31,296 bases of DNA from IMG/VR virus record IMGVR_UViG_3300023179_000344, positions 1 through 31,296 of that record; one strand, 5' to 3'. The position numbers and the translations under genes are program-made. How positions within the stretch are numbered: position 1 is the first letter of the stretch; each line of letters opens with the position of its first letter. Positions 8,540 through 27,140 of this stretch are shown here, piece by piece. The notes under the pieces are model-generated. The model was not told the DNA's origin. It did no database searches and saw nothing but the letters and a program-made list of their open reading frames with translations. The stretch is from a virus.

Positions 8540-8969
8540 GCAAAGAGAGACTTTTTTCTAATTCTCTCAACTGTTGTTCTAACAAATCAAGGTTAGTTTC
8601 CACATTTTCTAATCTATCATCCAAGATTGGATTATATTTTGTTTTTAGTCTACGTTTAAAACGTTCTTTGTCATCCAATAGCATATCTAATTGATGGTCA
8701 TAGGCAATCATTTTATGGGAATCAGTATAGCGTTTTTTACATATTAATGCTGCAAATAGTATAGCAATACGGCGTTGTTTGAAAGTAGAAATTGTTGATT
8801 TTCCTCTTTCAACATTCCATATACCATTGCTATTCTTGATTTTAATATCATTAACCACAAAAGTATTACCTACCGATTTTACAATGATATTTCCACGTTT
8901 AGACATATCATTATAGGAATCAGTGATAAACTTTGCTATTTTGTTGAATTGATATTTTTCGCTGTTCAT
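8535..8969 (-). CDS. Hypothetical protein with C-terminal coiled coil
   Basis: A 144-residue basic protein. The N-terminal 60 residues look like a small beta-rich domain (GNIIVKSVGNTFVVNDIKIKN). The C-terminus is a heptad-like helix (DDRLENVETNLDLLEQQLRELEKS) suited to oligomerisation. No family is recognised. A sigma-70-type promoter (TTGACA, 17 bases, TAAAAT) ends 6 bases before the ATG with no ribosome-binding site between, which predicts a leaderless mRNA and early expression. That is unusual inside an otherwise late region. Confidence 0.78.
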   Translation of the reverse strand: MNSEKYQFNKIAKFITDSYNDMSKRGNIIVKSVGNTFVVNDIKIKNSNGIWNVERGKSTISTFKQRRIAILFAALICKKRYTDSHKMIAYDHQLDMLLDDKERFKRRLKTKYNPILDDRLENVETNLDLLEQQLRELEKSLSLQ

Positions 8970-8975
8970 ACAAGT

Positions 8976-9004
8976 ATTTTATCAAACAGCATTATAATTG
9001 TCAA
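8976..9004 (-). promoter_or_regulatory. Sigma-70 promoter, leaderless arrangement, for the 8535-8969 gene
   Basis: The minus strand reads TTGACA (8999-9004), a 17-base spacer and TAAAAT (8976-8981). Only 6 bases separate the -10 box from the ATG at 8969, so transcription should start at or next to the initiation codon. The same geometry recurs at four other genes in this window. Confidence 0.68.
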
Positions 9005-9280
9005 TTATAAGTGCGGATTTTTCGCAATATAAATTATCAACCCTAATAGGGCTGTTAGTAGTGAGCCAATAATGCCAATTCCCAAGCCAACGAGTTTTTT
9101 ATAAGCCATAGTTTCTTTCTCGATCAACATATTTTTGATCTCGCTGACTATGGATTCGACTGTAGCAAGTCTTGTTTCCATAGTATTCATTTTTTCATCC
9201 ATTCTTTCATAACGCTCTGCACAAAGATCAACGTGTGCTTCTAAACTTTCACGTTCATTTTCATAAACTTTAGTTGCCAC
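9005..9280 (-). CDS. Coiled-coil plus C-terminal membrane segment protein (holin-accessory/XhlA-like candidate)
   Basis: A 91-residue protein. An amphipathic helical N-terminal half (ERYERMDEKMNTMETRLATV) leads into one C-terminal hydrophobic segment (LVGLGIGIIGSLLTALLGLIIYIA) and a short basic tail. This layout matches XhlA-type holin-associated proteins and some T4-like small membrane proteins. The chosen start is GTG at 9280, because GGAG lies 6 bases upstream; the in-frame TTG at 9292 has no such site. A perfect late promoter (TATAAATA) lies 25 bases upstream. Late expression plus topology make a lysis role reasonable, but no endolysin gene is in view to support it. Confidence 0.72.
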   Translation of the reverse strand: MATKVYENERESLEAHVDLCAERYERMDEKMNTMETRLATVESIVSEIKNMLIEKETMAYKKLVGLGIGIIGSLLTALLGLIIYIAKNPHL

Positions 9281-9305
9281 TTTGTTCTCCAAATGCAGTG
9301 CAAAG

Positions 9306-9313
9306 TATTTATA
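9306..9313 (-). promoter_or_regulatory. T4-type late promoter TATAAATA before the membrane-protein gene
   Basis: A perfect TATAAATA on the minus strand lies in the short gap before the GTG at 9280, followed by a GGAG ribosome-binding site. This is the canonical gp55-dependent late octamer of T4-like phages. Confidence 0.72.
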
Positions 9314-9319
9314 ATATGG

Positions 9320-9667
9320 TTAAATCATTAAAAAGTGGGTGTTTTTGTGTTCACTGTCTATTAGAGCACAGTTTATGTCAAAATCAATAGTTTCATTAAG
9401 TCCAGATATAATAGGAAGATGCTGAACTATTTTTTCAAGTTCAGTTATGTTTATGTTTTCAGTAGAATCAAAATCAAATATCCAGACATTATGAAAACCG
9501 CTATAGTTTTTACCAAAATCTAAACCAGTTAAATCTCTATGAATTTTCTTTGGAAAGTTTTGAATTTCAAAATTGCAATATAGACTTATAGATTGCATAA
9601 GTGAAACCCAATTTTTATTTGGATTTGTTTCTGTTCCCAAATCTATAAGTGTTAAACAACGTATCAT
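9320..9667 (-). CDS. Hypothetical protein
   Basis: A 115-residue protein starting at the ATG at 9667 (MIRCLTLIDLGTETNPNKNW). The open frame extends upstream to a GTG at 9733, but that extension would translate straight through a rho-independent terminator hairpin and is rejected. No family, signal peptide or membrane segment is recognised. The sequence looks like a small alpha/beta domain (GFHNVWIFDFDSTENINITELE). There is no clear ribosome-binding site, and the strong terminator just upstream means transcription must come from read-through or a promoter I cannot see. Confidence 0.62.
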   Translation of the reverse strand: MIRCLTLIDLGTETNPNKNWVSLMQSISLYCNFEIQNFPKKIHRDLTGLDFGKNYSGFHNVWIFDFDSTENINITELEKIVQHLPIISGLNETIDFDINCALIDSEHKNTHFLMI

Positions 9668-9684
9668 AAGAGTATATAGACAAT

Positions 9685-9710
9685 AAAAAAGGGCGGTAAA
9701 AATACCGCCC
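9685..9710 (-). terminator. Rho-independent terminator
   Basis: On the minus strand a perfect 8-bp stem, GGGCGGTA/TACCGCCC (9691-9710), with a 4-base loop is followed by a run of six T (9685-9690). It ends the transcript of the 9736-10170 gene. It is the strongest terminator in the window and suits a highly expressed late gene. Confidence 0.92.
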
Positions 9711-9735
9711 TTAATTCTACTATATTCACCCACTA

Positions 9736-10170
9736 TTAAGTGTATGAAAGTTTGAAACCCTTGTTCACGAAAAGTGAAGTAGTTGCGTTAGTGCTGTTGT
9801 TACCATAGTAACCACTACCGTTACCACCGTTACGAACAATTGCCTGAACTGCTGATGCAATACCAGCGTCAGTTGTTGCATAACCTGCTGCACCTTCAAG
9901 AAGAAGACTGATGTTACCACCACTACCTGTTTCAATTTGGTATGCAAGAACTGTAATGTTTGCTGAAAGTGTCTTCAAGATACCTTCAACACCAAGGTTT
10001 ACACCAAGTTCGTTTGTAAGATCGGTTGCTGCACCACCAGAACCTGCAATATAACCTGCAAGAGCTACTGGTTGCTTACCAATGAAACTTGCACCTGCTG
10101 CTGTGCTGATAAAGCCCTTGCCGTCACCAACAAGACCAACGTTACCATTTACACGATAAAAATCTGCCAT
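9736..10170 (-). CDS. Small Gly/Ala-rich virion protein, probably abundant
   Basis: A 144-residue protein starting MADFYRVNGNVGLVGDGKGF, rich in Gly, Ala, Thr and Asn and free of Cys, as many phage capsid-decoration or tail proteins are. I do not recognise a named family. Its signals suggest high late expression: a perfect TATAAATA late promoter about 40 bases upstream, GGAG at good spacing before the ATG, and a strong terminator just downstream that isolates it as a single-gene unit. Its GC content looks higher than that of neighbouring genes. A decoration or tail protein is the best guess. Confidence 0.82.
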   Translation of the reverse strand: MADFYRVNGNVGLVGDGKGFISTAAGASFIGKQPVALAGYIAGSGGAATDLTNELGVNLGVEGILKTLSANITVLAYQIETGSGGNISLLLEGAAGYATTDAGIASAVQAIVRNGGNGSGYYGNNSTNATTSLFVNKGFKLSYT

Positions 10171-10210
10171 TTTAATACTCCAAAATCTGCGTTTATTAAT
10201 ACGCTAATAG

Positions 10211-10218
10211 TATTTATA
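10211..10218 (-). promoter_or_regulatory. T4-type late promoter TATAAATA before the 9736-10170 gene
   Basis: A perfect minus-strand TATAAATA lies 40 bases before the ATG at 10170, in the gap between genes. Together with the terminator at 9685-9710 it defines a monocistronic late unit. Confidence 0.78.
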
Positions 10219-10238
10219 TTACTGGAAAGAAAAGAGCT

Positions 10239-10487
10239 TTATTTGCTCTCATTTATTCGTCTTAAGCCACGAACAAATTTAGCTGGTTCTTGTGTGCGTA
10301 TGCTATTCAGCAATCTACGTTCAAGTTCTTCTGCCTCTGGAGTATCATATGTTTCACGTAGTTGATTAATTAAATTAATAGCACTATTAATGATATGATT
10401 GGCACGACTTTCAAGAACGTGTCCACTATCTTTGCCTATTGACATATGGCTTAATTCATCAAGAATACTGCGAGATTGTTTACGCAA
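10239..10487 (-). CDS. Hypothetical small helical protein
   Basis: An 82-residue, highly charged helical protein ending in LLNSIRTQEPAKFVRGLRRI, a pattern I recall from conserved hypothetical proteins of marine T4-like phages. The start chosen is TTG at 10487, because GGGAG lies 8 bases upstream; a TTG at 10502 would put that site inside the gene. It begins 20 bases after the stop of the radical SAM gene and shares its strand, so the two may be co-transcribed. Function is unknown. It could be a small virion protein or, less likely, a partner or substrate of the radical SAM enzyme. Confidence 0.7.
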   Translation of the reverse strand: MRKQSRSILDELSHMSIGKDSGHVLESRANHIINSAINLINQLRETYDTPEAEELERRLLNSIRTQEPAKFVRGLRRINESK

Positions 10488-10507
10488 ATTACTTACTCCC
10501 AAATTAT

Positions 10508-11530
10508 TTAGGGATTTTTACACTTTGCAACTTTTCCACAAACATTGTCGCATTGAATTAAACGACCAGTTTCATAACTATCTTTAGTCCATGAACTTTC
10601 TACACTACTAAACCATTGTATGCAAGTTTCTAACTCATTTTCATGCAAGCTATTATGTTTTATCAATGGTTTAATTTGACGATTTAAAAATCCATTATAT
10701 CCTTGATCATAGGTTAATGGATTAAAAGCCAAATAACAACAAGGATAAACTAATCCATTTGCAGCAATATAAACTGAACTATTATCTTTTGTAAAACAAG
10801 AATGTATTAATCCTTGAACATATGGTCGATGACGATATGTTTTATTTGGGTCACTTTGAAATTTTATTATATCTTCAATATCAGTAAACCCTTTGTAATT
10901 TCCTAAAATACGAACTAACTTACCACTGCGGTCAAAAACTGGACCAGTATTTCGTCCATGATCAACTATTTCAAATCTTGCAAATCCTAGTTTTTTAGAA
11001 AGTAATTGTGCCTCTTCAATTTGATGTTTATTATGATCAAATCTTATCATTTTCCAAGTAGCAACTCCGCCAGCATCCATATAAGTTTTTGCATTTTGAA
11101 GTATTCTGTTAAAATTGGTATCTTGCCGATATATTTCATGTGTATCTTCTAAACCATCTAGGCAAAAATCTACAATTGTATCTGAAAATTTTCCAAGTTC
11201 ATGCCAAAAATCTGCGTTTCTTGCACTACCGTTTGTGCTTATTCTTATCCCCAATGGCGAATAACACGATTTAAAATAATCTAATATTTGTAGAGATTCT
11301 AAATTAGATGTAAAATCTCCAAAATTTCCATTAAGTAATATTCCACGTTCAAGTTGTGAAATAAATTGTGGGGAAAATGAATGTTTAATTAAATTAAGTG
11401 TTAAATTAGTTTCTTCATATCCACTATTGTATGGATAACCAAATAAGTTTCTTGGACAAAGTGGACATCTAGCATTACATAAACTACTAAATTCCATATG
11501 TAAATGTCTGATTTCTTTTAAACTGATCAT
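10508..11530 (-). CDS. Radical SAM enzyme with SPASM-like C-terminal cluster domain
   Basis: A 340-residue radical SAM protein. The 4Fe-4S/SAM motif is CNARCPLC (residues 18-25), and a GNFGDF segment at about 70 resembles the GGE region. The C-terminal third has SPASM-like cysteines: a Cys before AANGLVYPCC, then CIQW, and finally CDNVCGKVAKC, enough for an auxiliary iron-sulfur cluster. Family members modify peptides, proteins or small molecules; the substrate here is unknown. It is divergent from a second radical SAM gene, with only 27 bases between start codons, so the two probably share a control region. It is visibly more AT-rich than neighbouring structural genes, which suggests separate acquisition. 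Confidence 0.88.
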   Translation of the reverse strand: MISLKEIRHLHMEFSSLCNARCPLCPRNLFGYPYNSGYEETNLTLNLIKHSFSPQFISQLERGILLNGNFGDFTSNLESLQILDYFKSCYSPLGIRISTNGSARNADFWHELGKFSDTIVDFCLDGLEDTHEIYRQDTNFNRILQNAKTYMDAGGVATWKMIRFDHNKHQIEEAQLLSKKLGFARFEIVDHGRNTGPVFDRSGKLVRILGNYKGFTDIEDIIKFQSDPNKTYRHRPYVQGLIHSCFTKDNSSVYIAANGLVYPCCYLAFNPLTYDQGYNGFLNRQIKPLIKHNSLHENELETCIQWFSSVESSWTKDSYETGRLIQCDNVCGKVAKCKNP

Positions 11531-11557
11531 TTCTATATTTAAATAGTATACACAATC

Positions 11558-12841
11558 ATGAATGAAATCAAATCAAAATTAGAAAAACGTGGTAAATTTT
11601 TTTGTCCTGCAAAGTGGCAAGAATTATATCTGTATTTGAATCATGGTAATACAAACAGTTGTTCTCATCCAATACCACACAAAATACCACAAGAAGAACT
11701 TAATGAAAGTTTGTTTGCTTTACATAACACCAAACATAAAATGAAAGTTCAGCAACAAATGCTTAATAACGAAATCCCCGATGAGTGTCATATGTGTTGG
11801 CATTTAGAGAATAAAGGAATTATGAGTGATAGATTTGTAAGAGGCAGTCACTGGGAATCTTCTATAGACAATCTAAAAGTAGATAAAAATCATATTCCTA
11901 AATTTATAGAAGTTGTATTTGATAATTTATGTAATTTAAGTTGCAGCTATTGTGATAGTGGTCAAAGTTCAAAATGGACAAACATTTTAGAAAAAACAGG
12001 TCCATGGGAAATAGAAACAGATGATAGAAATTTATATAACAAAATTAACATAAAATCAGGGTTTGTAAATAAAACTTATATCGACGCTTGGAATAATTGG
12101 TGGCCGTTAATTAAAAATCAAGTTGAGTTTTTAAAAATAAGTGGCGGCGAGCCTTTAATCAGTCCCAATTTTTGGAATACCGTATACAAAGTTGATGAAA
12201 GCAATCTGAATTTAAATTTAAGTATTAACAGTAACATGTGTTTTGATAAGAAATATATTCTTAAATTAATAGAAATTGCAAAAAATTATAAAACGATCAA
12301 AATTTCAGCAAGCATTGATGCAACTGGAAAAATAGCAGAATATACCAGAAATGGTTTAGATTATGATTTATTTTTAGAAAATATTAATTATTGGTGTGAT
12401 AATAGTCCAGATAACTGTTATCTAAGTTTGCAAAGCACAGTTAATATTTTTAACATCTGGGGCATTACCGACAAGTTTGATTTGCATTTGAATTTAAAAG
12501 AAAAGTATGGAACTAAAATAAAAGAATGTTATAGCACTATTGTTAGATTTCCAAAATTTCAAAATTTTTTATTATTACCATATAGTATCAGAAAATCTAT
12601 ACATGAAAAAATGTCTGCATGGTATGAAAGTAAAATTGATAAATTTTCCGAAAAAGAAAATATTTTTATTAAAAAAACATTCCAAAATCTTCTATCGGAA
12701 AATGATGAGCATAATTTTGAAAAGAAAAAACTTTACAAGCAAGATTTAATTAAATTTGTAAAAAATTATGACAAATTTAATAAACATAAATTTGAAAATG
12801 TTTATCCAAAAGAATTTATTGATTGGTTGAATGAAGAATAA
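11558..12841 (+). CDS. Radical SAM protein of the 'twitch' type
   Basis: A 427-residue radical SAM protein on the plus strand. The cluster motif is CNLSCSYC (about residue 125-132), followed by ISGGEPL (GGE motif, SAM binding) and the strands LNLSINSNM and IKISASIDATG of the partial TIM barrel. An N-terminal Cys-containing region (FFCPAKW, CSHP, CHMCW) could hold an auxiliary cluster, as in twitch-domain proteins. The Lys/Asn-rich C-terminus is very AT-rich. The substrate is unknown. It is transcribed away from the other radical SAM gene and toward the DnaE-like polymerase, 69 bases ahead. No clear ribosome-binding site precedes the ATG. Confidence 0.87.
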   Translation: MNEIKSKLEKRGKFFCPAKWQELYLYLNHGNTNSCSHPIPHKIPQEELNESLFALHNTKHKMKVQQQMLNNEIPDECHMCWHLENKGIMSDRFVRGSHWESSIDNLKVDKNHIPKFIEVVFDNLCNLSCSYCDSGQSSKWTNILEKTGPWEIETDDRNLYNKINIKSGFVNKTYIDAWNNWWPLIKNQVEFLKISGGEPLISPNFWNTVYKVDESNLNLNLSINSNMCFDKKYILKLIEIAKNYKTIKISASIDATGKIAEYTRNGLDYDLFLENINYWCDNSPDNCYLSLQSTVNIFNIWGITDKFDLHLNLKEKYGTKIKECYSTIVRFPKFQNFLLLPYSIRKSIHEKMSAWYESKIDKFSEKENIFIKKTFQNLLSENDEHNFEKKKLYKQDLIKFVKNYDKFNKHKFENVYPKEFIDWLNEE

Positions 12842-12910
12842 AAATTAAAAAACTCTATTTTTCAAGATAATTAATATATTATAGGCAAATTTAGGCATAA
12901 AGGGCAAACA

Positions 12911-14611
12911 ATGAAACTACCAGAAAACGCACAGGCACAATGCGAACAATTATTAAAAGAATTTAGAAGAAAAATACCAGATGATGCGGCATATAGTGAT
13001 CGCCTTGTTGAAGAAATAGAAATCATACTGGGATTACGTTTTACAGAATACTTCTTACAGGTCCGTGAAATATTAGATATGACCACTGATTTACCACACA
13101 TGACTCGTGGTAGTGCAGGCAGTAGTCTTGTATGTTGGGCATTAGGAATTACAGACGTTGATCCTATAAAATGGGATATACCACTTTCACGATTCTTAAA
13201 TCCACACCGTGATGATTTACCAGACATAGACATAGACTATCCACATTGGGCACAAACTACAGTGATGGAACGTATATTCAAACGCTGGCCAGGTAAAAGT
13301 GCACGAATTAGTAACTATGTTACATTCAAAGAAAAAAGTGCCAAGCGTGAAGCAGCACGACGACTTGGTGCAAAAGGTAAATTACCTCGCAACTTCAAAT
13401 ACGATGATCTTGACATTGACATAGGGGAAGCCATACGTATTGAAAAGAAGTTGCTTGGTAAGAAACGAGCCATCAGCAAACACTGCGGTGGCATACTTGT
13501 GTTCAAGCATAATCTACCAAAAAGTCTAATAAATGCCGATAATCAAATACTGTTAGACAAACATGAAGTAGAAGACCTTGAACACTTGAAGGTTGACATA
13601 CTTGCTAATCGTGGTTTAAGTCAACTATATGAAATAGAACCAAATATGAGTTTAGAAGACTATCCTGATTATGATGAAGCAACTATAAATCTACTTTGCA
13701 ATGGTGATGTATTAGGTGTAACACAAGGTGAATCACCAGCAATGCGACGATTGTTCCGTGCAATACAACCAAAGTCACGCAGTGATTGTGTATTTGCTAC
13801 TGCACTTATACGTCCTGTTGCTACCACTGGTCGCCAAAAAGCAAGTTTCTTTCATGACTGGACTGAACAACGATTAGAAGAAAGTATTGTTTATGAAGAT
13901 GATGCTATCAAAAAGATAAGCAAACTTATTGGTTGTGATATCTATGAAGCAGATATGTATCGTCGTGCATTTGCCAAAAAGAATGAAGAAAAAGTTTATG
14001 AGTTTATGCACCGCATGGGAACACATCCTAATAAAACAGAAATTATAGACGAACTTTATCAACTTGGAAACTTTGGATTATGCCGTGCACATGCTGTAAA
14101 TCTTGGTAGATTGATTTGGGCGTTAGCATATCAGAAAGCGCATAACCCAAAACCATTTTGGGCAGCATATCTTAAACACTGTGAAGGCAGTTATCGTCGT
14201 TGGGTTTACAAGAATGAAGCCAAACGTGCTGGTTGGGATTTACGTGATTTAGGTTACAATTACAGTTTACTAAACGACTCAATTTATGAATATCGCAAGT
14301 ATGGATGGTGGGGAGATCAAGAGTTCTTATCAGGTTTTTATTGTTCTAATCAGTATCTGGACCGTTTTGAATTTGCTGGTCTTGTTGCTAATGGTCGTGT
14401 ATTCAAAGGTGAAGGTGGAAAGTATATTACATTCTTGACACTTGGTGTTGGTAACGGAAAATATATTGACCTATTGGTAAAAGGTCCAGTTGCATATCAT
14501 GATTATGATGTTGTATGCGGAGTAGGCAAAGTTAAAACAAGCAATGGCAGTCAATATATTGAATGTCAAAATGTGCGGACATTAAAATTGGAAAAATTTA
14601 TTTCTGCTTAA
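12911..14611 (+). CDS. C-family DNA polymerase III alpha-like protein lacking the PHP domain
   Basis: A 566-residue DnaE-type polymerase, about half the length of bacterial DnaE. The palm is complete: RGSAGSS (66-72), LPDIDIDY with the catalytic pair D105 and D107, and LKVD with the third Asp D229. LGVTQGESPAMRRLF and ALIRP match the DnaE fingers region. LCRAHAVNLGRLIW matches the conserved FNKSHA helix, and FAGLVANGRVFKGEGGKYITF begins an OB domain. The N-terminal PHP domain (about 280 residues in DnaE) is absent; the gene has its own ATG with AAGGG 6 bases upstream, so this is a compact form rather than a fragment. It converges on the helicase gene with a 14-base overlap. Confidence 0.88.
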   Translation: MKLPENAQAQCEQLLKEFRRKIPDDAAYSDRLVEEIEIILGLRFTEYFLQVREILDMTTDLPHMTRGSAGSSLVCWALGITDVDPIKWDIPLSRFLNPHRDDLPDIDIDYPHWAQTTVMERIFKRWPGKSARISNYVTFKEKSAKREAARRLGAKGKLPRNFKYDDLDIDIGEAIRIEKKLLGKKRAISKHCGGILVFKHNLPKSLINADNQILLDKHEVEDLEHLKVDILANRGLSQLYEIEPNMSLEDYPDYDEATINLLCNGDVLGVTQGESPAMRRLFRAIQPKSRSDCVFATALIRPVATTGRQKASFFHDWTEQRLEESIVYEDDAIKKISKLIGCDIYEADMYRRAFAKKNEEKVYEFMHRMGTHPNKTEIIDELYQLGNFGLCRAHAVNLGRLIWALAYQKAHNPKPFWAAYLKHCEGSYRRWVYKNEAKRAGWDLRDLGYNYSLLNDSIYEYRKYGWWGDQEFLSGFYCSNQYLDRFEFAGLVANGRVFKGEGGKYITFLTLGVGNGKYIDLLVKGPVAYHDYDVVCGVGKVKTSNGSQYIECQNVRTLKLEKFISA

Positions 14612-16001
14612 GATTATTAAGCATTTGTCGTAGCGCACTGCTGTTTACATCAGCCTGTATTTTACCAGGTTGATCTTCTACCACTGCTTCTGTTGATGGC
14701 TTAACATTGCTACCACCTTTAATGCTTGCAAAGATACTACTGCTTTGTTTCTTAAATTGTTGATAATCTGGATCTTCTGCAAGGTCACGAATACGCAAAC
14801 TATCAATATCAAATTCTAATTCAATCTTTTGCCCAACACCACTACTACTACGTGTTTTCATAAGTTGTAGTTGATACTTGCCATGTTCACGCATACTACG
14901 ACTTGTAAAGATACCAAATAGATTATCTGCGGTATTGATCTTACTGATACCACCACTGATATGACTATGGTCAAATTCTACTTCTTCCACAGATGCACGG
15001 TTTAACTGTGATGCTGTGACTAATAGAATATCTAATTCTTTTGCAAAGTTACGAATTTCTTCACTGACATACTTGTCTTTAACAAACAGATCACTTGGGC
15101 TAACCTTTGCACTAACAGGCATAAGCAAGTCAAGATAATCAATCATAACAAAGTCAACATGACGACCAGTTCGTATTTGTAATTCTTTAATATAAGCACG
15201 AACATCGTTGATATTGCTTTGTGCTGGCATATACTTGATTTGCAAGCGACCACTTTTCTTGCCAAGCATCTTAACTTTAACTTCAATATCTTCAATGCTT
15301 TTAAAGATATCACGTGACGGTGTATTGGTAAGCATACCATCAATACGCATGGCAGTAAGTTCTTCACTCAATTCAAGTGTAATGTATACACCATTAAGAC
15401 CTGCCAATATCCAATTACAAGCAATGTTCTGCATGAACAGTGATTTACCACTACCAGAACCGCCAGCAAAGATATTCAATTCACCACGATTAAATCCACC
15501 AAACAGCTTCTTGTCAAGTGTGGTCCATCCACTACTTGTTTGACCGTTATTATCTTTAATTTTATTCAATCGTGCAATAGGATCAAGAAAGTAGTCAGTG
15601 CCAAGGTCTTTGGTTAAACTAATCTGCACTGCATCTTTAATAATCTTTTCAACAGGATCAAAATCACCCTTTTCCAACATATCTGCGGCTTTTAGAATTG
15701 CACGTTCTAATTCTTTTTGTTTAGTAAAACCTTCAAATTCTTCCAAGAACCAACCAGTATGGTCATCAGTCATACCAGGTATGGGTTGGAAAGTATTACT
15801 GGTGGCAGCATTAATCTGTTCTACCAATGGCATAATAGTATGCTTGTCACAATGTTCTTTGATAAACTTTGCCGCACTCTGCAAACTACGGTCAAAGTTG
15901 TTTGGATTGAAAATGTTTTGGACACGCACATAACTTTGTGGGTCACTTAACATCATTTCAATGAATAGTTTTTGAACTTGTGAGTCGTAGTTTTTAGACA
16001 T
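14598..16001 (-). CDS. Replicative DNA helicase (DnaB/gp41-like)
   Basis: A 467-residue RecA-fold replicative helicase that unwinds DNA at the fork as a ring hexamer with the primase. The N-terminal 130 residues are the helical DnaB-N-like domain. The Walker A motif is GGSGSGKS (180-187), VYITLELSEE follows as the H1a region, and VDFVMIDYLDLL (282-293) is Walker B. LLVTASQLNR and ISGGISKINTAD are the H3/H4 motifs, and QLMKTRSSSG carries the arginine-finger region. A sigma-70-type -10 TATAAT ends 8 bases before the ATG with no ribosome-binding site, so the mRNA is probably nearly leaderless. The gene converges on the DnaE-like polymerase gene. Confidence 0.94.
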   Translation of the reverse strand: MSKNYDSQVQKLFIEMMLSDPQSYVRVQNIFNPNNFDRSLQSAAKFIKEHCDKHTIMPLVEQINAATSNTFQPIPGMTDDHTGWFLEEFEGFTKQKELERAILKAADMLEKGDFDPVEKIIKDAVQISLTKDLGTDYFLDPIARLNKIKDNNGQTSSGWTTLDKKLFGGFNRGELNIFAGGSGSGKSLFMQNIACNWILAGLNGVYITLELSEELTAMRIDGMLTNTPSRDIFKSIEDIEVKVKMLGKKSGRLQIKYMPAQSNINDVRAYIKELQIRTGRHVDFVMIDYLDLLMPVSAKVSPSDLFVKDKYVSEEIRNFAKELDILLVTASQLNRASVEEVEFDHSHISGGISKINTADNLFGIFTSRSMREHGKYQLQLMKTRSSSGVGQKIELEFDIDSLRIRDLAEDPDYQQFKKQSSSIFASIKGGSNVKPSTEAVVEDQPGKIQADVNSSALRQMLNNLKQK

Positions 16002-16009: not shown

Positions 16010-16037
16010 ATTATACACTTTATAGTTTAAATTACAA
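16010..16037 (-). promoter_or_regulatory. Sigma-70 promoter of the helicase gene
   Basis: The minus strand reads TTGTAA (16032-16037), a 16-base spacer and a perfect TATAAT (16010-16015) preceded by GTG, giving an extended -10-like TGTATAAT. The -10 box is 8 bases from the ATG at 16001 and there is no Shine-Dalgarno sequence. Confidence 0.55.
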
Positions 16038-16599: not shown

Positions 16600-17358
16600 T
16601 TAAATACTTTGATTATAAGTAAAATATTTTACATTGATATCATAAAAACGTTTATATAAAATTTCTACTTTATTCTTATCTACTTGAATATCAAATTTTT
16701 CTAATATTTCTTGCAAATTTTTTAAAAATTTATCATAAGAAAAAAAATTTTCAAAGTAAAAAACTATATCAGTATCTTCAATATTAACACTTTCAGAAAG
16801 ATTATAATAATACTCTGTTATTTTTTTACTATTTTTTTCTAAAATTAAATGTTTTCTTTTTTTATTTTTTTCTAGGTCACTAATTTTTTTGTAGCTATAT
16901 ATTGCATTTTCATTGACTGATTCTTTAATTTTATCTCCCATTATTTTACTAACAATATCTAATGACTCTTTTTTAAAAAGAATAAAAATTTTATTTGTAT
17001 GGGGGAAAACTTCTCTTATTTCATTTATACCTACAAAAGTGGCAATTCTTTGAGGGGGTTGAAATATTTTTTCATTTTTAACTTTGACATCAATGTTTTT
17101 ATTTAAAAAGCTATCTTTGTCTTCACGGGTTTTTATTTCTATCCATGCATTAATATCATCGTCACCATGAAAATTATTCAAGACAAAAATTATATTTTTA
17201 TGGGCAGCATTGTTTTGATCAAAAATATCGAAAGAATCCTCAAAATATTTTGTAAATTTATCTGATAAAATTAATATATGATATAAAAAACTACCAAATG
17301 TTCCTGGTGTATAAAATATAAAAAACATTTGTTTTTTTAATTCTTCTAAATCAATCAA
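16600..17358 (-). CDS. Hypothetical AT-rich protein, related layout to the 16032-16586 product
   Basis: A 252-residue Lys/Phe/Ile-rich protein. FFIFYTPGTFGSFLYHIL near the N-terminus resembles the strand-loop-helix opening of the neighbouring protein, and DIVFYFENFFSYDKFLKNLQ near the C-terminus resembles the late segment of sulfotransferase-like proteins. No catalytic residue can be assigned. The frame opens with TTG at 17358, overlapping the primase stop by 4 bases (TTGA). An ATG at 17328 would give a 242-residue protein beginning directly at MFFIFYTPG, and could be the true start. Homopolymer runs of A and T are frequent, and composition differs clearly from the flanking primase gene. Confidence 0.7.
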   Translation of the reverse strand: MIDLEELKKQMFFIFYTPGTFGSFLYHILILSDKFTKYFEDSFDIFDQNNAAHKNIIFVLNNFHGDDDINAWIEIKTREDKDSFLNKNIDVKVKNEKIFQPPQRIATFVGINEIREVFPHTNKIFILFKKESLDIVSKIMGDKIKESVNENAIYSYKKISDLEKNKKRKHLILEKNSKKITEYYYNLSESVNIEDTDIVFYFENFFSYDKFLKNLQEILEKFDIQVDKNKVEILYKRFYDINVKYFTYNQSI

Positions 17359-18356
17359 TCAAACCACCGTTTTGTTTGTAATTTAATTTTTAAACTACTA
17401 TTTTCTACACTTTGTAAAATACTTTTCATAGTGAAGGTATGACCATACTTAGCAACACTGTCTGCAACATCTTTAATACCATCACCCCAATCTGGAAATG
17501 CTACTCCCCAACCATACTTTAGCGCAGCATTAACCATTGCGTGGCCAGCTTTGTCACGATCAGGAACAACAATGATATCACGATCAAGTGTTTCAATAAC
17601 ATCGGCTTGCGTGTCATTGATTTCATTACTACAAATTGCAAGTGCACCAATAGCAACTGCATCAAGCAATCCTTCAACAACAATACAAAACTTTGCGTTT
17701 TTAAGTTGTTTATCATATCCCCATATCATATTACTTGGATAGTTGGAAAAATATTTTATCTTCTTCTTACCATCTTCAAATAATCTACCACTGAAACCCA
17801 TGGGTTTATTGTTCCAAGTAAATGGAACTAACACACGGTTGCGCAATGACGCATCATCTGTCCAATGAAACTCATGCAACTTATCACCAAAACCACGAGC
17901 ATCAAGATAACGAATAGCGGTTTCCAAACTGTTATAATCTTCTTCATTGATATATCCATCATTTAACCAACTTGTAATAGGACGACCAGGACAAGGATCA
18001 CGTGGTTCATAGGTAGGTAACTCACGTGTTTCAACTACAACTGGTTCTGCGGTCTCTTGGCTGATAGCAAATAGCGCAAGACGACCTACAAGGTCTTCAC
18101 CCATACCAAGCCAGTTCATCCAACGCCGCATTTTATAACTTAAACGACGACCTGGCTGCCAACTACAAGTATAGTGACAATTGAAACAATGATAATTGAT
18201 ACCGCCTTCTAGTGTTTGGTGAACACCACCACGACCACGAGTATCGGACTCGTGTCCCAAATGCTGACAGCATGGCGCATTAAAGCTAATCCACCCACTT
18301 GGGGTAGATTTCTTCTTCCATGGCAAATGGTTCAGTATTTGGTTGGTAATTTCCAT
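17355..18356 (-). CDS. DNA primase (DnaG/gp61-type, zinc-binding plus Toprim)
   Basis: A 333-residue primase that makes RNA primers for lagging-strand synthesis. Residues 25-65 form a zinc-binding domain with CCQHLGH (C29, C30, H32/H35) and CFNC (C57, C60). The Toprim core follows: FCIVVEGLLDAVAIGAL gives the catalytic Glu and IIVVPDRDKAGH gives the D-x-D metal pair. Length suits T4-like phage primases, which are shorter than DnaG because they lack a large helicase-binding domain. Its sigma-70 promoter (TTGACA, 17 bases, TATATT) ends 6 bases before the ATG without a ribosome-binding site, so leaderless early expression is predicted. Confidence 0.92.
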   Translation of the reverse strand: MEITNQILNHLPWKKKSTPSGWISFNAPCCQHLGHESDTRGRGGVHQTLEGGINYHCFNCHYTCSWQPGRRLSYKMRRWMNWLGMGEDLVGRLALFAISQETAEPVVVETRELPTYEPRDPCPGRPITSWLNDGYINEEDYNSLETAIRYLDARGFGDKLHEFHWTDDASLRNRVLVPFTWNNKPMGFSGRLFEDGKKKIKYFSNYPSNMIWGYDKQLKNAKFCIVVEGLLDAVAIGALAICSNEINDTQADVIETLDRDIIVVPDRDKAGHAMVNAALKYGWGVAFPDWGDGIKDVADSVAKYGHTFTMKSILQSVENSSLKIKLQTKRWFD

Positions 18357-18362: not shown

Positions 18363-18391
18363 AATATAACAGATTTATGGCAATCTGTCAA
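18363..18391 (-). promoter_or_regulatory. Sigma-70 promoter of the primase gene, leaderless arrangement
   Basis: The minus strand reads TTGACA (18386-18391), a 17-base spacer and TATATT (18363-18368). The -10 box ends 6 bases before the ATG at 18356, so transcription should begin at the start codon itself. Confidence 0.75.
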
Positions 18392-22429: not shown

Positions 22430-22887
22430 TTCAACGCCTCTTTAATTTCTTTGTCGCTATATCCACGTTCAACTAACATACCTTTATATTGCTCATCAGT
22501 AATTTTATCAGCAAGAAGTTCTGCTTCATCACTCTTGATATGCGGATATAATTCTAACATCTTTTGAGCACGTTTATTCTTGGCAGTCTTTCCGCTATAT
22601 GCCATCCACTCATGACGATGCTTGCCCATGTTGGGGCTTACAGTGGTCAGCAGCAGCCATTGTAGTTTAGGATGCTTGTTGATATCAAAGAAACGTTTGT
22701 TTACACGTTCATTCATTGCTTGCAGATAATATTGTTGTAATTCTGGAATACCGTTGACTACACTGCCCCAACGCAACATAAGATAGGTAGAGAACTTCTT
22801 GCGTTCTTCATCATTGAGTTCATCATAAAACTCACGATTACGCAAATCAAGTTGTGCCATTTCATAACCAATGTCAAGTTTGTTCAT
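22426..22887 (-). CDS. Possible clamp-loader small subunit (gp62-like)
   Basis: A 153-residue helical protein. The segment FYDELNDEERKKFSTYLMLRW, then NKRFFDINKHPKLQWLLL, resembles what I recall of gp62, the small subunit that helps the gp44 ATPase load the sliding clamp in T4-like phages. The C-terminal half (MLELYPHIKSDEAELLADKI) is a second helical bundle. Neither gp44 nor the clamp gp45 is in view, so the call rests on sequence memory alone and is moderate. It overlaps its neighbours on both sides (14 bases with the nuclease-like gene upstream, 4 bases downstream). Confidence 0.6.
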   Translation of the reverse strand: MNKLDIGYEMAQLDLRNREFYDELNDEERKKFSTYLMLRWGSVVNGIPELQQYYLQAMNERVNKRFFDINKHPKLQWLLLTTVSPNMGKHRHEWMAYSGKTAKNKRAQKMLELYPHIKSDEAELLADKITDEQYKGMLVERGYSDKEIKEALK

Positions 22888-23512
22888 AGAATATTTCTTT
22901 TTCTACATCTAATGCTATTGCAGCTATTTTTCTTATCACAATACCGTTATCTTTTGCAATTAATAAATGTGTTAAATCTTTATAAGAATTAATATCTTTA
23001 TTATTAACTAATACAATGTCTATTCCTTTTTGAATAATTTTTTTATAAATTTTTTCATCATATTCTTGCGTAATTGCTTTGCCATTAGAAAGAATGCTAT
23101 ATTGAAGATCACAAGGTCTCATATACATAAAAAGTTGATGCAAAGAATGATCCGTATACACAATATACCAAGTTTTAGCATTTGTATCCCACTTTGCACC
23201 TAATTTTTTTACCCTATCTTTGTGCTCAAATGGGACATCAAGAATTATTTTATAATTTTGTTTCATATAGCTGTAACTTAAAGTTAATTCATGATATACA
23301 CATTCAATATAGATGTCATATTTTCTAATATAAAAATCACATATAATATTTTGATTAGGATATTTTACTTCATATTCATATGAAAGACCGCTTGGTAGCA
23401 AAAATTTATTCACAAAATCAGCTTCAAATTTACTGCGATATTTTTTACCGTCATTGGCAACAGTTGGAATACCAAAGATAGGTTTTTTTGGTTTTGTTGC
23501 AAGATTAACCAA
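22874..23512 (-). CDS. PD-(D/E)XK nuclease-like domain fused to DUF5710-like module
   Basis: A 212-residue protein with two recognisable parts. Residues 25-75 (YRSKFEADFVNKFLLPSGL, then CDFYIRKYDIYIECV) resemble Vsr/homing-type PD-(D/E)XK nucleases, with a helix Glu, the D of CDF and the E of IEC; the lysine usual after the Glu is replaced by Val, so activity is uncertain. Residues 90-120 (LDVPFEHKDRVKKLGAKWD, then WYIVY) match the DUF5710 module found in phage and plasmid DNA-processing proteins. Its TTG start at 23512 has AGAGG 8 bases upstream and overlaps the upstream gene by 8 bases. It is more AT-rich than its neighbours, consistent with a mobile or acquired nuclease. Confidence 0.7.
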   Translation of the reverse strand: MVNLATKPKKPIFGIPTVANDGKKYRSKFEADFVNKFLLPSGLSYEYEVKYPNQNIICDFYIRKYDIYIECVYHELTLSYSYMKQNYKIILDVPFEHKDRVKKLGAKWDTNAKTWYIVYTDHSLHQLFMYMRPCDLQYSILSNGKAITQEYDEKIYKKIIQKGIDIVLVNNKDINSYKDLTHLLIAKDNGIVIRKIAAIALDVEKEIFYEQT

Positions 23513-23738
23513 GGATTATTCCTCTCCATTCACCTTTTTCGGTTGGTGAAAATATGCCAGCGATGCTGCCATCATTTTTGATTTCTTTTACTTCTTCACT
23601 CGCATAATATAGTGAGCGCAACTGATCTGCCGCATCTTTCAACGTAAGATTAGTCTCGGTGGCTTTAAGTATATCCATCCATTCAATATATTCTTCTGTA
23701 TAATAACGCTTTGGTGGCGAAACTGTTCCAATGCTCAT
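23505..23738 (-). CDS. Hypothetical small protein, first gene of the operon
   Basis: A 77-residue protein (MSIGTVSPPKRYYTEEYIEW) with a helical, acidic middle (LKDAADQLRSLYYASEEVKE). No family is recognised. It is the first gene of the eight-gene operon running down to 19569. A consensus sigma-70 promoter (TTGACA, 17 bases, TATAAT) ends 6 bases before its ATG with no ribosome-binding site, so translation probably starts on a leaderless mRNA. A small leader gene in this position often serves host takeover, but nothing in the sequence shows that. Confidence 0.75.
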   Translation of the reverse strand: MSIGTVSPPKRYYTEEYIEWMDILKATETNLTLKDAADQLRSLYYASEEVKEIKNDGSIAGIFSPTEKGEWRGIILG

Positions 23739-23744
23739 AATAAT

Positions 23745-23773
23745 ATTATACTACACTATATTTTGGATGTCAA
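23745..23773 (-). promoter_or_regulatory. Consensus sigma-70 promoter of the 23738-19569 operon, leaderless arrangement
   Basis: The minus strand reads a perfect TTGACA (23768-23773), a 17-base spacer and a perfect TATAAT (23745-23750). It overlaps the last codons of the 23751-24251 gene, and the -10 box ends 6 bases before the ATG at 23738. This is the best sigma-70 match in the window. Confidence 0.85.
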
Positions 23774-24251
23774 TGGTTTCACTTGCACGACTAATTTCTT
23801 TAACAAAGTATGCACATATTGGCTTTGGTCCGTCAGTTATTGGAATACAAAGTAGCTGACCGTTCTTTAGTTTAGGAAAATACCAGCGCACATCCTGATA
23901 CACATCTTCAATTTCTATGTTCATAAATGCCGCACGGAATGAACTTAGCGGATTAAATGTAAATGCTTGGAATCCACGGTCATTGAGTTTTGTAAGTGGC
24001 AGTGCTTCTAAGTCACCAATTTCTGCTTCGCCAATAAGAATACGCCAATTATATGGCATCATAATTCTGTGTTCACCAATTTTTAAAACCAATGCTGGAT
24101 CATTAAAACTTTCTAAAAATACCAATGGCAAGAAATAATAATCTGCTTCTGGTGGGTTACTGTTATCTAAAACGCAAAATCGTAAATCATCAACTTGGTC
24201 TGGTAAATTATTCATTTCAAATACGGTATTATCAACTGTTAGTATTCTCAC
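23751..24251 (-). CDS. Conserved-type hypothetical protein
   Basis: A 166-residue protein with a mixed alpha/beta look. The block YFLPLVFLESFNDPALVLKI, then PYNWRILIGEAEIGDLEALP and FNPLSSFRAAFMNIEIEDVY, recalls a hypothetical protein of marine T4-like phages; I do not know its function. There is no signal peptide or membrane segment. It overlaps the SGNH-like gene by 4 bases (ATGA), and its 3' end contains the promoter of the next operon. It is the last gene of the uvsW-led operon. Confidence 0.75.
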   Translation of the reverse strand: MRILTVDNTVFEMNNLPDQVDDLRFCVLDNSNPPEADYYFLPLVFLESFNDPALVLKIGEHRIMMPYNWRILIGEAEIGDLEALPLTKLNDRGFQAFTFNPLSSFRAAFMNIEIEDVYQDVRWYFPKLKNGQLLCIPITDGPKPICAYFVKEISRASETIDIQNIV

Positions 24252-25018
24252 TGTCTTTCCTTAACAAAATTATAATATAATTCAGCAATGGCAACCTGAC
24301 CATCAGGGTGCGTATGATATCCTGGATCTGGTCCAGTTAATGGATGACTATTGCAAAAAGCACCCAACGCAAAATTTGGTGGTGCAAAATATTTTTCTAA
24401 AAATGGTTGTGGGAAATCTGCCGCCCAACCTTTACCATGAATATATGTATTCCAACCATTAAACAAAAATGGTATGTTTAAGTAATCTAATTTCCATAAA
24501 CCACTATACAATACCCAATTATCTACTTGACGTTTCCAATGTGCATCATAAAGAAATGCAGCATAACCTTCCATTGCCATGCGTGTATGTTTGTCTACTT
24601 TGGCAATGCGATAGTTATGGTCATAGTTCTCAATAACACTGAACATTGTTTCAGCAATCATATGATAAGGATGAGCATCACCATAGTTAAAGTTCTTTAA
24701 CCCATCTTCCCAACGATAACCATTACGGTTTTCTTCTTTTGCACTGTGGTTTGGACTACCATCTTCTATCTTAATAAACTTCTCAACTGGAAACTCTATG
24801 CGGTCTTCTGTAGTGCTTGCAATAAACACCCAATCTGCTTTTTCTTTTATTGCTTCATCAATCTGTAATCGTATTACATTATTGCCAATACCTTGACGAG
24901 CATAGGTAATAAGTTCAGCACCAAGTTTGTTAGCAAGAATTTCACTCCAATGCGTTCCCATATATTCAGGAAGATTACTAACAGCACTAAACGAGCAACC
25001 ACATACTGCTATTTTCAT
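24248..25018 (-). CDS. SGNH/GDSL hydrolase-like protein
   Basis: A 256-residue protein with the layout of SGNH hydrolases, which remove acyl or acetyl groups from sugars and lipids. MKIAVCGCSFSA at the start supplies the nucleophile Ser block, GIGNNVIRLQID resembles the Gly/Asn oxyanion blocks, and a C-terminal YHTHPDGQVAIAE gives the catalytic His region. The pattern is clear, though the nucleophile could be either Ser of CSFS. There is no signal peptide, so the substrate is probably cytoplasmic. It is coupled by 4-base overlaps to the neighbouring genes in the uvsW operon, an odd place for a carbohydrate-modifying enzyme. Confidence 0.72.
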   Translation of the reverse strand: MKIAVCGCSFSAVSNLPEYMGTHWSEILANKLGAELITYARQGIGNNVIRLQIDEAIKEKADWVFIASTTEDRIEFPVEKFIKIEDGSPNHSAKEENRNGYRWEDGLKNFNYGDAHPYHMIAETMFSVIENYDHNYRIAKVDKHTRMAMEGYAAFLYDAHWKRQVDNWVLYSGLWKLDYLNIPFLFNGWNTYIHGKGWAADFPQPFLEKYFAPPNFALGAFCNSHPLTGPDPGYHTHPDGQVAIAELYYNFVKERQ

Positions 25019-25665
25019 AAATTTTCATTCCATACATAACTATAATCAGCAGGATAGTATTTTTTACCCCACAATTCTATTTCTTTTTTTAATTCTACAA
25101 ACTTTAATAAACTTTTGTATTTTTGTATATCTATTTCATTAAACATATTATTAATTTCTATATCGTAATAAAGTTTTTCATAATTTAACAATATTTTATT
25201 TTTGTTATTTTTAGGATGATTATAAAAATCAAAGAAAAATTTAACTAGTAGTGGATTTTTTAAATGGGTTTCAAAGCTATGTTGATCTACAATTGTATGA
25301 TGGTCATGATTTTTAAATAAACTTTCAACTCGTATATTTGAATACCATTCTTTAGAAAAAATTATTTTATAAATTTGGAAATTATATTTTTTTAGCAACT
25401 CGTAATGTTCATTTTGTAAATAAAAAAGATGATGCACAGCAGTATATTTGTCAGAAATTGTTGACAAGATAAATTCAAATTCTTTATAATCTACGTTTTC
25501 TTTTGATTCTTCAAAAGAATTTATATGGCGTCTTAAATTTTTATTAAGACATATACTTTTAGATGTTAATTCAGTTTCCAGAAAAATATCATTATAATTT
25601 AAAAAATTACATAAAAAATCACCACGACATCCACCAACATATTCAATTAAATATTTTTCACTCAT
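25015..25665 (-). CDS. Hypothetical AT-rich protein with glycine-rich loop (sulfotransferase-like layout)
   Basis: A 216-residue, Asn/Lys/Tyr-rich protein. The N-terminal strand and loop KYLIEYVGGCRGDFLCNFLN closely recalls that of the 16032-16586 product, and ILLNYEKLYYD in the last third resembles the conserved late motif of sulfotransferase-like proteins. No PAPS-binding residues can be confirmed. It is joined by 4-base overlaps to uvsW upstream and to the SGNH-like gene downstream. Its strong AT bias against the flanking genes suggests it was inserted while keeping the overlap architecture. Confidence 0.72.
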   Translation of the reverse strand: MSEKYLIEYVGGCRGDFLCNFLNYNDIFLETELTSKSICLNKNLRRHINSFEESKENVDYKEFEFILSTISDKYTAVHHLFYLQNEHYELLKKYNFQIYKIIFSKEWYSNIRVESLFKNHDHHTIVDQHSFETHLKNPLLVKFFFDFYNHPKNNKNKILLNYEKLYYDIEINNMFNEIDIQKYKSLLKFVELKKEIELWGKKYYPADYSYVWNENL

Positions 25666-27104
25666 TTGTAGTTGCTCTTTTCTTGAGTAAATGGATATTT
25701 TGCATCTTTATAAAACTGTTTACGTTTTGTAAGATGACGTTTTGCAAACTTACAATCTGCTGTTACATCCCAGATTTGAACAAAGTCTTTGTCTTCTGCT
25801 TTGCGGATTCCACGTCCGATACTTTGGATGACACGAACAAAACTTTTACCAGGTTCAATAAGCACAAGATTGAAAATGCGAGGGATATTAATACCAACGG
25901 CTGCAACGCCGTAAGTAGCCACGATAATCTTGTCACTAACATCCGCAACTTCATCATAGTGTTCTTTACGATCTCCGACTTTCATATCGCCATGAACAAA
26001 CACACTATTAGGCAATCGTGCAACAAGTTCATCACCACATTCACGGCGATCAACCAACACAAGTGTATTACCAGTTTTGATAATTTCATTTACCATACTT
26101 GCAAGATGATCCAATCGTTCACTGTTAGTGGTGAGATATTTAAGTTCAGCCTGATAGTTTTTGAAGTCACTGTATTCAACAGTTTGCACAATGTTAACAT
26201 GACACGCACTTAACACACCACGTTCTTGTAATTCTGCTGCACTTAATTGATTAAGAACTTGACCAAATGATACAAGTAATGCGGCACGTTCAAATTGTTC
26301 TTTGGGAACTGTTCCTGTTAATCCCCAACGGATAGGAACATCAGCAAAGTGATCTGTAAGCAATGCTTTAAGAACTTCTGCTTTTGCTTGATGCACTTCA
26401 TCAACAATGATAGCAACAACGTTTAGCATCGCTGTCCACTCATCACCATCTTTATTTTTCTTTAGTAGATTGTTTAGGCTTTGCCATGTGCAGATAGTAT
26501 GTGTGCGACCAAGTTCTTTACGATCACCAAAATAAACACCAACATTTAATCCAAGATTTATATAATCTGCTTCTGTTTGAGTAACAAGACTTTTGTTAGG
26601 CACAATAATAATCGTGCGACCATACTTTTCAACACTATACGATAGTGCTGCTGTCATAATTGTTTTACCAGCACCAGTGGCTACTTCTTGTATACCTTGT
26701 GGATTTTGTAAGAACTCGTTGACAATTTCAACTTGATAATCACGTAGAACTATTGGCTTGCCTTCTTGTGGATGAACTTTTGGCCAGTTCTTATTGCTAA
26801 ATGTATTTTCATTTATTGCATCAAACTCAAGTTGCTCACGTGATGCACGATGATCTTCAATTTCAAAATCCCAATTACGATCTTGCAACCATTCTATAAT
26901 TTCTGGTAGTAGATTGATATAGGTTGAACCACCAAGTTGAAAATACGCAACCTTACCATCCCATCTACCTAACTTTACACTTGGTAGGTGACGAGCATAC
27001 GGAACTTCATACTTAAATTTTGTAACAAGTCTCCGACGAGTGTCAACGTCAAGACCTTCTAATTTACAATTGACTTCATCACGGATGATAATTTTACATA
27101 ACAT
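25662..27104 (-). CDS. uvsW: UvsW-type SF2 helicase
   Basis: A 480-residue superfamily 2 helicase matching T4 UvsW, which remodels stalled forks and R-loops and helps switch from origin- to recombination-dependent replication. An N-terminal DNA-binding domain (RRRLVTKFKYEVPYARHLPS, then GRWDGKVAYF) precedes the motor. Motif I is VATGAGKT (141-148), motif II is DEVH (235-238), motif III is GLTGT, and motif VI is SIGRGIRKAED. Length fits UvsW (about 500 residues). The promoter TTGAAA, 17 bases, TATATT ends 7 bases before the ATG with no ribosome-binding site. It leads an operon with three further genes, all with 4-base overlaps. Confidence 0.93.
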   Translation of the reverse strand: MLCKIIIRDEVNCKLEGLDVDTRRRLVTKFKYEVPYARHLPSVKLGRWDGKVAYFQLGGSTYINLLPEIIEWLQDRNWDFEIEDHRASREQLEFDAINENTFSNKNWPKVHPQEGKPIVLRDYQVEIVNEFLQNPQGIQEVATGAGKTIMTAALSYSVEKYGRTIIIVPNKSLVTQTEADYINLGLNVGVYFGDRKELGRTHTICTWQSLNNLLKKNKDGDEWTAMLNVVAIIVDEVHQAKAEVLKALLTDHFADVPIRWGLTGTVPKEQFERAALLVSFGQVLNQLSAAELQERGVLSACHVNIVQTVEYSDFKNYQAELKYLTTNSERLDHLASMVNEIIKTGNTLVLVDRRECGDELVARLPNSVFVHGDMKVGDRKEHYDEVADVSDKIIVATYGVAAVGINIPRIFNLVLIEPGKSFVRVIQSIGRGIRKAEDKDFVQIWDVTADCKFAKRHLTKRKQFYKDAKYPFTQEKSNYK

Positions 27105-27111
27105 TAATGTT

Positions 27112-27140
27112 AATATAGTATATTAGAAAATATATTTCAA
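27112..27140 (-). promoter_or_regulatory. Sigma-70 promoter of uvsW, leaderless arrangement
   Basis: The minus strand reads TTGAAA (27135-27140), a 17-base spacer and TATATT (27112-27117). The -10 box lies 7 bases before the ATG at 27104. It starts right after the terminator of the preceding unit, so uvsW is transcribed independently. Confidence 0.7.

Follow-up and report, generated by a model that had tools for sequence, protein, structure and literature searches.

Near-ATG promoters in the window

The DNA analyzed here (the window) comprises all 31,296 bases of IMG/VR virus record IMGVR_UViG_3300023179_000344. Five of its genes carry sigma-70-type promoters whose -10 boxes end only 6 to 8 bases before the ATG start codon. 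These genes and promoters lie on the minus strand, as do the hairpin and the three further promoters described below. The gene at 8535..8969 (gene 8969) encodes a protein of 144 amino acids with a weak match to phrog_7591, and the family search left its function unassigned; its -10 box TAAAAT (8976..8981) stands at a gap of 6 bases from the ATG, with the -35 box TTGACA (8999..9004) across a spacer of 17. A DnaB-like replicative helicase of 467 amino acids (14598..16001; PF03796, phrog_19) is preceded at a gap of 8 by TATAAT (16010..16015) and, across a spacer of 16, by TTGTAA (16032..16037), which overlaps the stop codon of the open reading frame (ORF) at 16032-16586; this site is the weakest of the five. 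The DNA primase (333 amino acids, 17355..18356, phrog_47) has TATATT at a gap of 6 (18363..18368), preceded by TG, and TTGACA at a spacer of 17 (18386..18391), overlapping the stop codon of the upstream ORF 18388-19176. Two AT-rich ORFs (16032-17358) separate the primase from the helicase, and the GC content at 16001-18000 is 26%.

The first gene of the 23738 operon (23505..23738) encodes 77 amino acids without a Pfam or PHROG match. Its -10 box TATAAT (23745..23750, gap 6) lies immediately behind the stop codon of ORF 23751-24251, and its TTGACA box (23768..23773, spacer 17) lies within the 3' end of that same ORF. The fifth gene encodes a UvsW-like helicase of 480 amino acids (25662..27104; PF04851/PF00271, phrog_16), with TATATT at a gap of 7 (27112..27117) and TTGAAA at a spacer of 17 (27135..27140). 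A hairpin resembling an intrinsic terminator lies immediately upstream of the uvsW promoter (27145..27167) and is only suggestive, as six such sites occur in the region against 6.3 expected.

A first-pass annotation of this DNA had listed these five promoters with their hexamers, spacers, and gaps, and each was recovered as described. They match the sigma-70 hexamers at 10 to 12 of 12 positions with spacers of 16 or 17, and the gap is 6 or 7 at four of the five sites and 8 at the helicase. The annotation had also claimed that no Shine-Dalgarno (SD) sequence intervenes before the ATG, and this proved correct: GGAG, AGGA, and GAGG are absent from positions -18 to -3 in all five genes. The frame upstream is closed 1 to 7 codons before the ATG in each gene. 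True starts lying farther downstream, behind SD sites, had been raised as an objection; no alternative start with an SD-like site was found in the first 50 codons of any of the five. For three genes (primase, helicase, and 23738), the promoter runs into the 3' end of the preceding ORF or directly adjoins it.

Other genes of the window combine the same kind of promoter with a leader. The promoters of 28361 (TTGACA-16-TATTAT, 28392..28419), 28754 (TTGACA-16-TATATT, 28786..28813), and 29001 (TTGACA-16-TATTAT, 29027..29054) lie at gaps of 30, 31, and 25 bases, respectively, and each is followed by a GGAG-containing leader. This agrees with the earlier description of the three genes as leadered with SD sites, and its proposal that two initiation modes coexist is supported, with one promoter type serving both sets.

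Judged from its genes, the window represents part of the genome of an uncultured jumbo phage of a T4-like lineage, kin of PA5oct, Atu_ph07, and Phosso. Its uvsW product shares 54% identity with the counterpart in Sinorhizobium phage Phosso, 51% with that in PA5oct, and 50% with that in Atu_ph07. For the helicase, identity is 55% with PA5oct, 51% with Atu_ph07, and 45% with Phosso, and for the primase it is 34% with Atu_ph07 and 31% with PA5oct. Phosso and Atu_ph07 are annotated with uvsW, a DnaE piece, primase, and helicase in that order, and PA5oct with uvsW, primase, and helicase; the window carries homologous uvsW, primase, and helicase genes in the same order as the PA5oct/RaK2/Atu_ph07 lineage. 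The closest large relative is G001, a genome of 338,435 bp whose helicase is 99% identical to that of the window. Megablast of window positions 8000-20000 against phages returned no matches, and a helicase scan of genome contigs, made as a host search, gave 27 pattern matches and no relatives.

Spacing and conservation in related genomes

Gaps between the promoter and the first ATG were counted in G001 and its relatives under one promoter definition (a -35 box beginning with TTG, a TANNNT -10 box, at least 9 of 12 matches, and a spacer of 16 to 18). Among 332 ATG genes of G001, 19 had a promoter at gaps 5 to 7 (2, 13, and 4 at gaps 5, 6, and 7, respectively), compared with a mean of 0.4 and a maximum of 2 in 20 rounds of shuffled upstream regions. 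At internal ATGs, the same spacing was found 5, 5, and 2 times for gaps 5, 6, and 7 among 7442 codons. Only 1 promoter was seen at gaps 0 to 4 and 2 at gaps 8 to 14, with 32 at gaps 15 to 55. The distribution in G001 is bimodal: the promoters leave either no leader at all or one of roughly 9 nucleotides or more. Measured leader lengths in Lactococcus cremoris are reported to show a gap between 4 and 14 nucleotides (PMC10986495). Gene 84396 of G001, which appeared in a 20-gene list of leaderless candidates, has a coding-like context, is probably a chance match, and stands outside the set of 19.

Genes in the relatives were called with a simple hexamer caller that misses short genes (in PA5oct, 196 ATG genes, or 271 at a laxer threshold, compared with 462 annotated features). 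Counts at gaps 5 to 7 were 9/123 in G005, 6/175 in G006, 4/319 in G007, 5/92 in G008, 3/43 in G004, 4/32 in G003, and 7/87 in G002, with shuffle means of 0 to 0.5; the G007 shuffles reached at most 3 in 10 rounds, against the 4 seen. G002 and G008, probably near-copies of G001, are not independent counts. The excess near the ATG also appears at 45 to 46% GC, in G006 (46%) and G007. Among cultured relatives, the counts were 0/364 in Phosso, 0/313 in RaK2, 0/302 in Atu_ph07, and 1/196 in PA5oct, and these four genomes had 19 to 57 promoters at gaps 15 to 55; 121Q gave 0/275 (shuffle mean, 0.3) and SCTP-2 gave 4/368 (shuffle mean, 0.1). When any of the first four start codons was allowed, the counts became 22 in G001, 9 in G007, 2 in PA5oct, 2 in RaK2, 1 in Atu_ph07, 1 in Phosso, 3 in 121Q, and 6 in SCTP-2. 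A laxer gene-calling threshold left the contrast between genomes unchanged for ATG starts. The count of -10-to-ATG distances that the first-pass annotation had proposed across this genome and its relatives thus gave a bimodal distribution that peaks sharply at gap 6 in G001 and the uncultured relatives and hardly or not at all in the cultured ones. In the window itself, hexamer calling yields only 23 genes, and therefore only one match each at gaps 6, 7, and 8 was recovered; at the G001 shuffle rate, about 0.03 to 0.06 strict matches at gaps 5 to 7 are expected for 23 to 36 genes, and four are seen.

Conservation was followed most closely for the primase. From 140 tblastn matches, 133 rows were retained, of which 69 remained after collapsing at 95% identity and 68 after removal of L093, whose upstream region was cut off. 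Under a looser criterion, a box at gaps 5 to 8 was present in 52 of the 68 nonredundant homologs, at exactly 6 bases in 47. Ten other four-base gap windows gave 0 to 9 of 68, and shuffles gave a mean of 3.1 and a maximum of 8 (30 rounds). The homolog counts are inflated by the preference given to whichever nearby start yielded a near-ATG promoter, an effect outside the reach of the primase shuffles, which keep the chosen start. The 16 primases without the box belong to 10 cultured phages that encode initiation factor 3 (IF3) and to the environmental contigs L062, L072, L147, L148, L165, and L176. The box extends to homologs only 35 to 40% identical to the G001 primase over the first 160 residues, and close relatives keep its distance from the ATG even where the six intervening bases differ. 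On the primase tree, the leaderless label takes 7 changes, compared with 14.4 in shuffles.

With the strict promoter at gaps 4 to 8, 36 of 56 distinct primase upstream regions were positive, including 15 of the 33 from homologs less than 60% identical to G001. For gene 8969, the figures were 17 of 18 distinct upstream regions and 12 of 13 at less than 60% identity, and for 23738 homologs they were 9 of 11. Upstream of the helicase in relatives, the sequence is widely divergent and a near-ATG promoter is often present, with TANNNT at gap 6 in 20 of 69 distinct regions. Both the promoter and its spacing are evident from the sequence and its conservation. Together, the gap statistics of G001 and the conservation at primase and gene 8969 indicate that the 5' ends of the mRNAs most likely coincide with the start codon or lie no more than about two bases from it, and the earlier claim that they begin at the start codon is supported to that extent.

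These controls bear directly on a simpler account, in which the near-ATG -10 boxes arise by chance in the AT-rich DNA between genes, with translation beginning elsewhere or on longer transcripts. A looser promoter scan of 15900-29200 lends it some weight, with 88 matches, some within coding sequence, only modestly above the 64.9 +/- 7.1 of shuffled DNA; raw promoter matches alone are weak evidence, and it is the exact spacing and its conservation that carry the case. Chance leaves unexplained the excess over shuffles at gaps 5 to 7 in G001, the almost empty gaps on either side, and the persistence of the excess at higher GC content and across distant primases. It is strongly disfavored by the shuffle and conservation controls and must be considered highly improbable. 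Full 12/12 sigma-70-like matches also occur inside or across ORFs of the window, at 18847-18875 (minus strand, within the ORF upstream of the primase) and 25461-25490 (plus strand). A T4-type late promoter was rejected as the origin of the near-ATG box, given the TTGACA-like box 16 to 17 nucleotides upstream.

Three cultured phages with known hosts make the prediction accessible. The PA5oct primase has a perfect TTGACA-17-TATAAT promoter; its annotated GTG directly adjoins the -10 box, with another GTG in the same frame at gap 6. The primase start region is the same in MIJ3, which belongs to that genus, and SCTP-2 has TTGACA-16-TAGCAT-6-ATG at 160185, upstream of its annotated start. The primases of all three are predicted to share a leaderless start, and the claim is therefore testable now. 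Transcription is predicted to start at 145890 in PA5oct (NC_071039; primase region 145884-146912) and at 160185 in SCTP-2 (MF360958; primase region 160185-161219). The annotated primase starts in PA5oct and SCTP-2 may be wrong: the promoter positions suggest that the PA5oct/MIJ3 start, directly behind the -10 box, lies upstream of the predicted transcript start and that the SCTP-2 start lies downstream of the likely one.

Some neighboring features of the window lie outside the promoter set. A DNA polymerase III alpha-like protein (PF07733/PF17657, phrog_11778) is encoded in separate pieces on opposite strands (12911-14611, plus; 19569-20117, minus), and a small polymerase gene is annotated close to the primase in Phosso and Atu_ph07. 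The divergent ORFs at 10508-11530 (minus) and 11558-12841 (plus) appear radical-SAM-like by their cysteine motifs, as judged by eye.

Predicted leaderless genes, leadered genes, and a possible role of IF3

Eight of the 19 leaderless genes of G001 encode the primase, UvsW, a deoxynucleoside monophosphate kinase, an SbcD-like nuclease, a clamp loader, a polynucleotide-kinase-like protein, an exonuclease, and an endonuclease. Six more encode a nucleotide-sugar epimerase, a DNA methyltransferase, a phrog_1314 protein, a homing endonuclease, a Clp-like ATPase, and a DnaJ-like protein (the last label was read from the sequence by the analyst), and the remaining five have no PHROG match. Matches among the 10 leadered genes examined include UvsX, an AAA ATPase, RNA ligase, an HNH endonuclease, a deoxyribonucleotidase, and another epimerase. 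The functional split between leaderless and leadered genes is not clean. In six relatives, SD sites occur in only 5 of 45 leaderless genes, compared with 40 of 59 leadered genes (at least 10 matches) and 338 of 920 other genes. A TG extension of the -10 box is found in 22 of 45 leaderless and 25 of 60 leadered genes, and the two sets therefore share one promoter type.

Taken together, the spacing, conservation, and SD frequencies make it very probable that a defined set of phage genes has a leaderless architecture, produced by near-ATG sigma-70-type promoters and translated without an SD site. Host RNA polymerase with its housekeeping sigma factor would start these genes with the -10 box 6 (5 to 8) nucleotides before the start codon; the mRNA would then start on the AUG or GUG, give or take about two bases, and would be translated without an SD site, presumably through direct binding of 70S ribosomes. 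A second gene set with the same kind of promoter would carry leaders. A likely advantage would be that the control region fits into the 20 to 40 bp behind a co-directional gene and that ribosomes find no site at the start codon except when the transcript starts on it. Transcript 5' ends, 70S initiation, and early timing are inferred here, and the genes may be called early by their promoter type and function.

Several observations weigh against this reading. The strict near-ATG promoter (gaps 4 to 8) was present in only 18 of 69 helicase and 21 of 85 uvsW distinct upstream regions, and SD-like sites were found in 22 helicase and 17 uvsW regions of the remainder. In G001 alone, under the looser 9-match rule, only 17 of 38 leadered genes have an SD site. 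Predicted RNA structure over the first 30 to 60 nucleotides did not differ between leaderless and other genes (p 0.42 to 0.98); an unstructured start is reported for leaderless mRNAs of Caulobacter (PMC4117421). The transcription start could also shift by several bases at most, which would leave the mRNAs with very short leaders.

Leaderless mRNAs may be made from these promoters and yet have no regulatory meaning, the arrangement being simply the shortest working promoter in hosts that translate leaderless mRNAs well. This account, which is nested within the leaderless reading, has about an even chance of being right. Nine of the 19 leaderless genes of G001 lie within 40 nucleotides of a co-directional upstream gene, as it would predict, and Caulobacter is reported to have 375 leaderless genes (9.6% of its coding sequences) that are translated as well as leadered ones (PMC4117421). 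G001 carries a permuted transfer-messenger RNA (tmRNA) gene of alphaproteobacterial type (L192:330-709; ARAGORN 330-694, RF01849 at 377-709, 108 bits), a weak pointer to a host group in which leaderless mRNAs may be common. Against a purely economical arrangement, the leaderless state has been kept for particular genes, primase and gene 8969, over long divergence, and in the same genome the promoters of UvsX and some other genes lie farther upstream. Moreover, Phosso and Atu_ph07, which have alphaproteobacterial hosts, show no first-ATG gene at gaps 5 to 7 and one each with any start codon.

A stronger proposal, also nested within the leaderless reading, is a regulated switch of the kind raised in the first-pass annotation, favoring leaderless genes when initiation factors or ribosomes change during infection, with phages that supply their own IF3 having dropped leaderless starts. 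IF3 was examined in 14 cultured genomes drawn from 61 records with a primase match. It was found (PF00707) in 11: Phosso, Atu_ph07, RaK2, 121Q, CBB, Vibrio 2.275, Munch, XaC1, XbC2, fENko-Kae01, and pEa_SNUABM_47. In all 11, the primase is leadered and lacks a near-ATG promoter, and IF3 was not found in PA5oct, SCTP-2, or MIJ3, whose primases are predicted to be leaderless. It was likewise not found in 49 environmental records (G001 to G008 and 41 more), most of which are fragments. In a tree test with 14 rows, the association between IF3 and a leadered primase was complete (10 cultured phages with IF3; G001, G007, PA5oct, and SCTP-2 without, G001 and G007 not being established as complete). 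High IF3 is reported to inhibit some leaderless mRNAs, and a dual effect of IF3, which tells against the switch, is described in the same source (PMC9031893). IF3 genes have been noted in some jumbo phages (PMC7824862, PMC7162821), and Thermus phage phiYS40 offers a precedent in which IF2 is reported to be raised and IF3 lowered (PMC3594737).

The association is compatible with such a switch and no proof of it. The primase tree holds only 1 independent IF3 contrast on supported branches and 2 on all, with long branches meeting, which allows no test; the association for that reason counts as a lead rather than a result. Leaderless genes are few in PA5oct and SCTP-2 even with any start codon counted (2 and 6). 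Ribosomal protein bS21 occurs in 7 of 8 genomes tested whether leaderless or not and is therefore no discriminator of the groups, and no S1-domain gene was found in 10 genomes tested; phage S1-like proteins have been linked with rare SD sites (PMC7162821). On balance, a regulated switch is unlikely. A further idea, speculative and with a similarly small chance of being correct, is that the lineage has split into two heritable strategies for its replication genes: one with its own IF3 and SD leaders, the other without IF3 and with a promoter-locked start codon usable only as a 5' end. Such a gene would stay silent on read-through (for example, late) transcripts from its upstream neighbor, and promoter position alone would time protein synthesis. 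That read-through transcripts would leave such a start codon silent is speculative, as is a link to IF3.

Initiator tRNAs are recognized by the pair at position 1-72 and by a GGG/CCC anticodon stem. A phage initiator tRNA favoring leaderless mRNAs was considered for G001 and rejected, as its two tRNA-Met(CAU) genes have G-C and G-U at 1-72 and lack the GGG/CCC stem. G001 has 23 tRNA genes in total, one tRNA-Ala among them; in the window, a tRNA-Ala(tgc) gene lies at 30137-30210 (minus strand), 19 nucleotides upstream of ORF 29401-30117.

Comparison with known leaderless systems

Leaderless initiation is usually seen as a host trait or, in phages, as a single-gene oddity. Here the leaderless start looks like a conserved, gene-specific trait of a giant-phage lineage. 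Two questions become directly testable: how a single translation apparatus serves both leaderless and SD-led phage mRNAs, and how IF3 affects the balance.

The early mRNAs of phiYS40 reportedly have leaders, and P23-45 is said to make leaderless middle and late transcripts. Most middle and late mRNAs of phiYS40 are described as leaderless (PMC3594737), and this lytic phage resembles the present case in having a leaderless mRNA class. It differs in that its leaderless genes are middle and late genes of a thermophile's phage, whereas the set described here, judged by gene function, includes replication and repair genes, uses TTGACA/TATAAT promoters, and belongs to a T4-like jumbo lineage. Within that lineage, Phosso and Atu_ph07 are related through uvsW, primase, and helicase but differ in having leadered primases and IF3, and PA5oct (Arenbergviridae) combines a predicted leaderless primase with just a single further gene of that kind. 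The cI gene of lambda is a single repressor gene of a temperate phage, in contrast to a genome-wide class. It is reported to have a 5'-terminal AUG, and in this it is similar (PMC9031893).

Among cellular systems, the Deinococcus-Thermus genes described as having a "-10 region adjacent to ORF" come close: TANNNT lies a few base pairs before the start codon, the mRNA is leaderless, and classical genes occur alongside (PMC12340547). In those genes, the -10 motif is reported to suffice and a -35 box to strengthen it, whereas the phage genes here have a good -35 box 16 to 17 nucleotides away (PMC12340547). In Caulobacter, transcription from the start codon is documented by mapped ends and concerns host genes (PMC4117421); in the phage, it is predicted. 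The AR9 paper calls phage transcripts "often leaderless," yet gives 5' untranslated regions of 26 to 491 nucleotides for AR9 (PMC5312081). Among the matches listed from the open-licence literature, no title or abstract opening mentioned a leaderless class in PA5oct-like jumbo phages. Leaderless phage mRNAs are already known, and the class predicted from the conserved near-ATG promoters of this jumbo lineage would be a new form of them.

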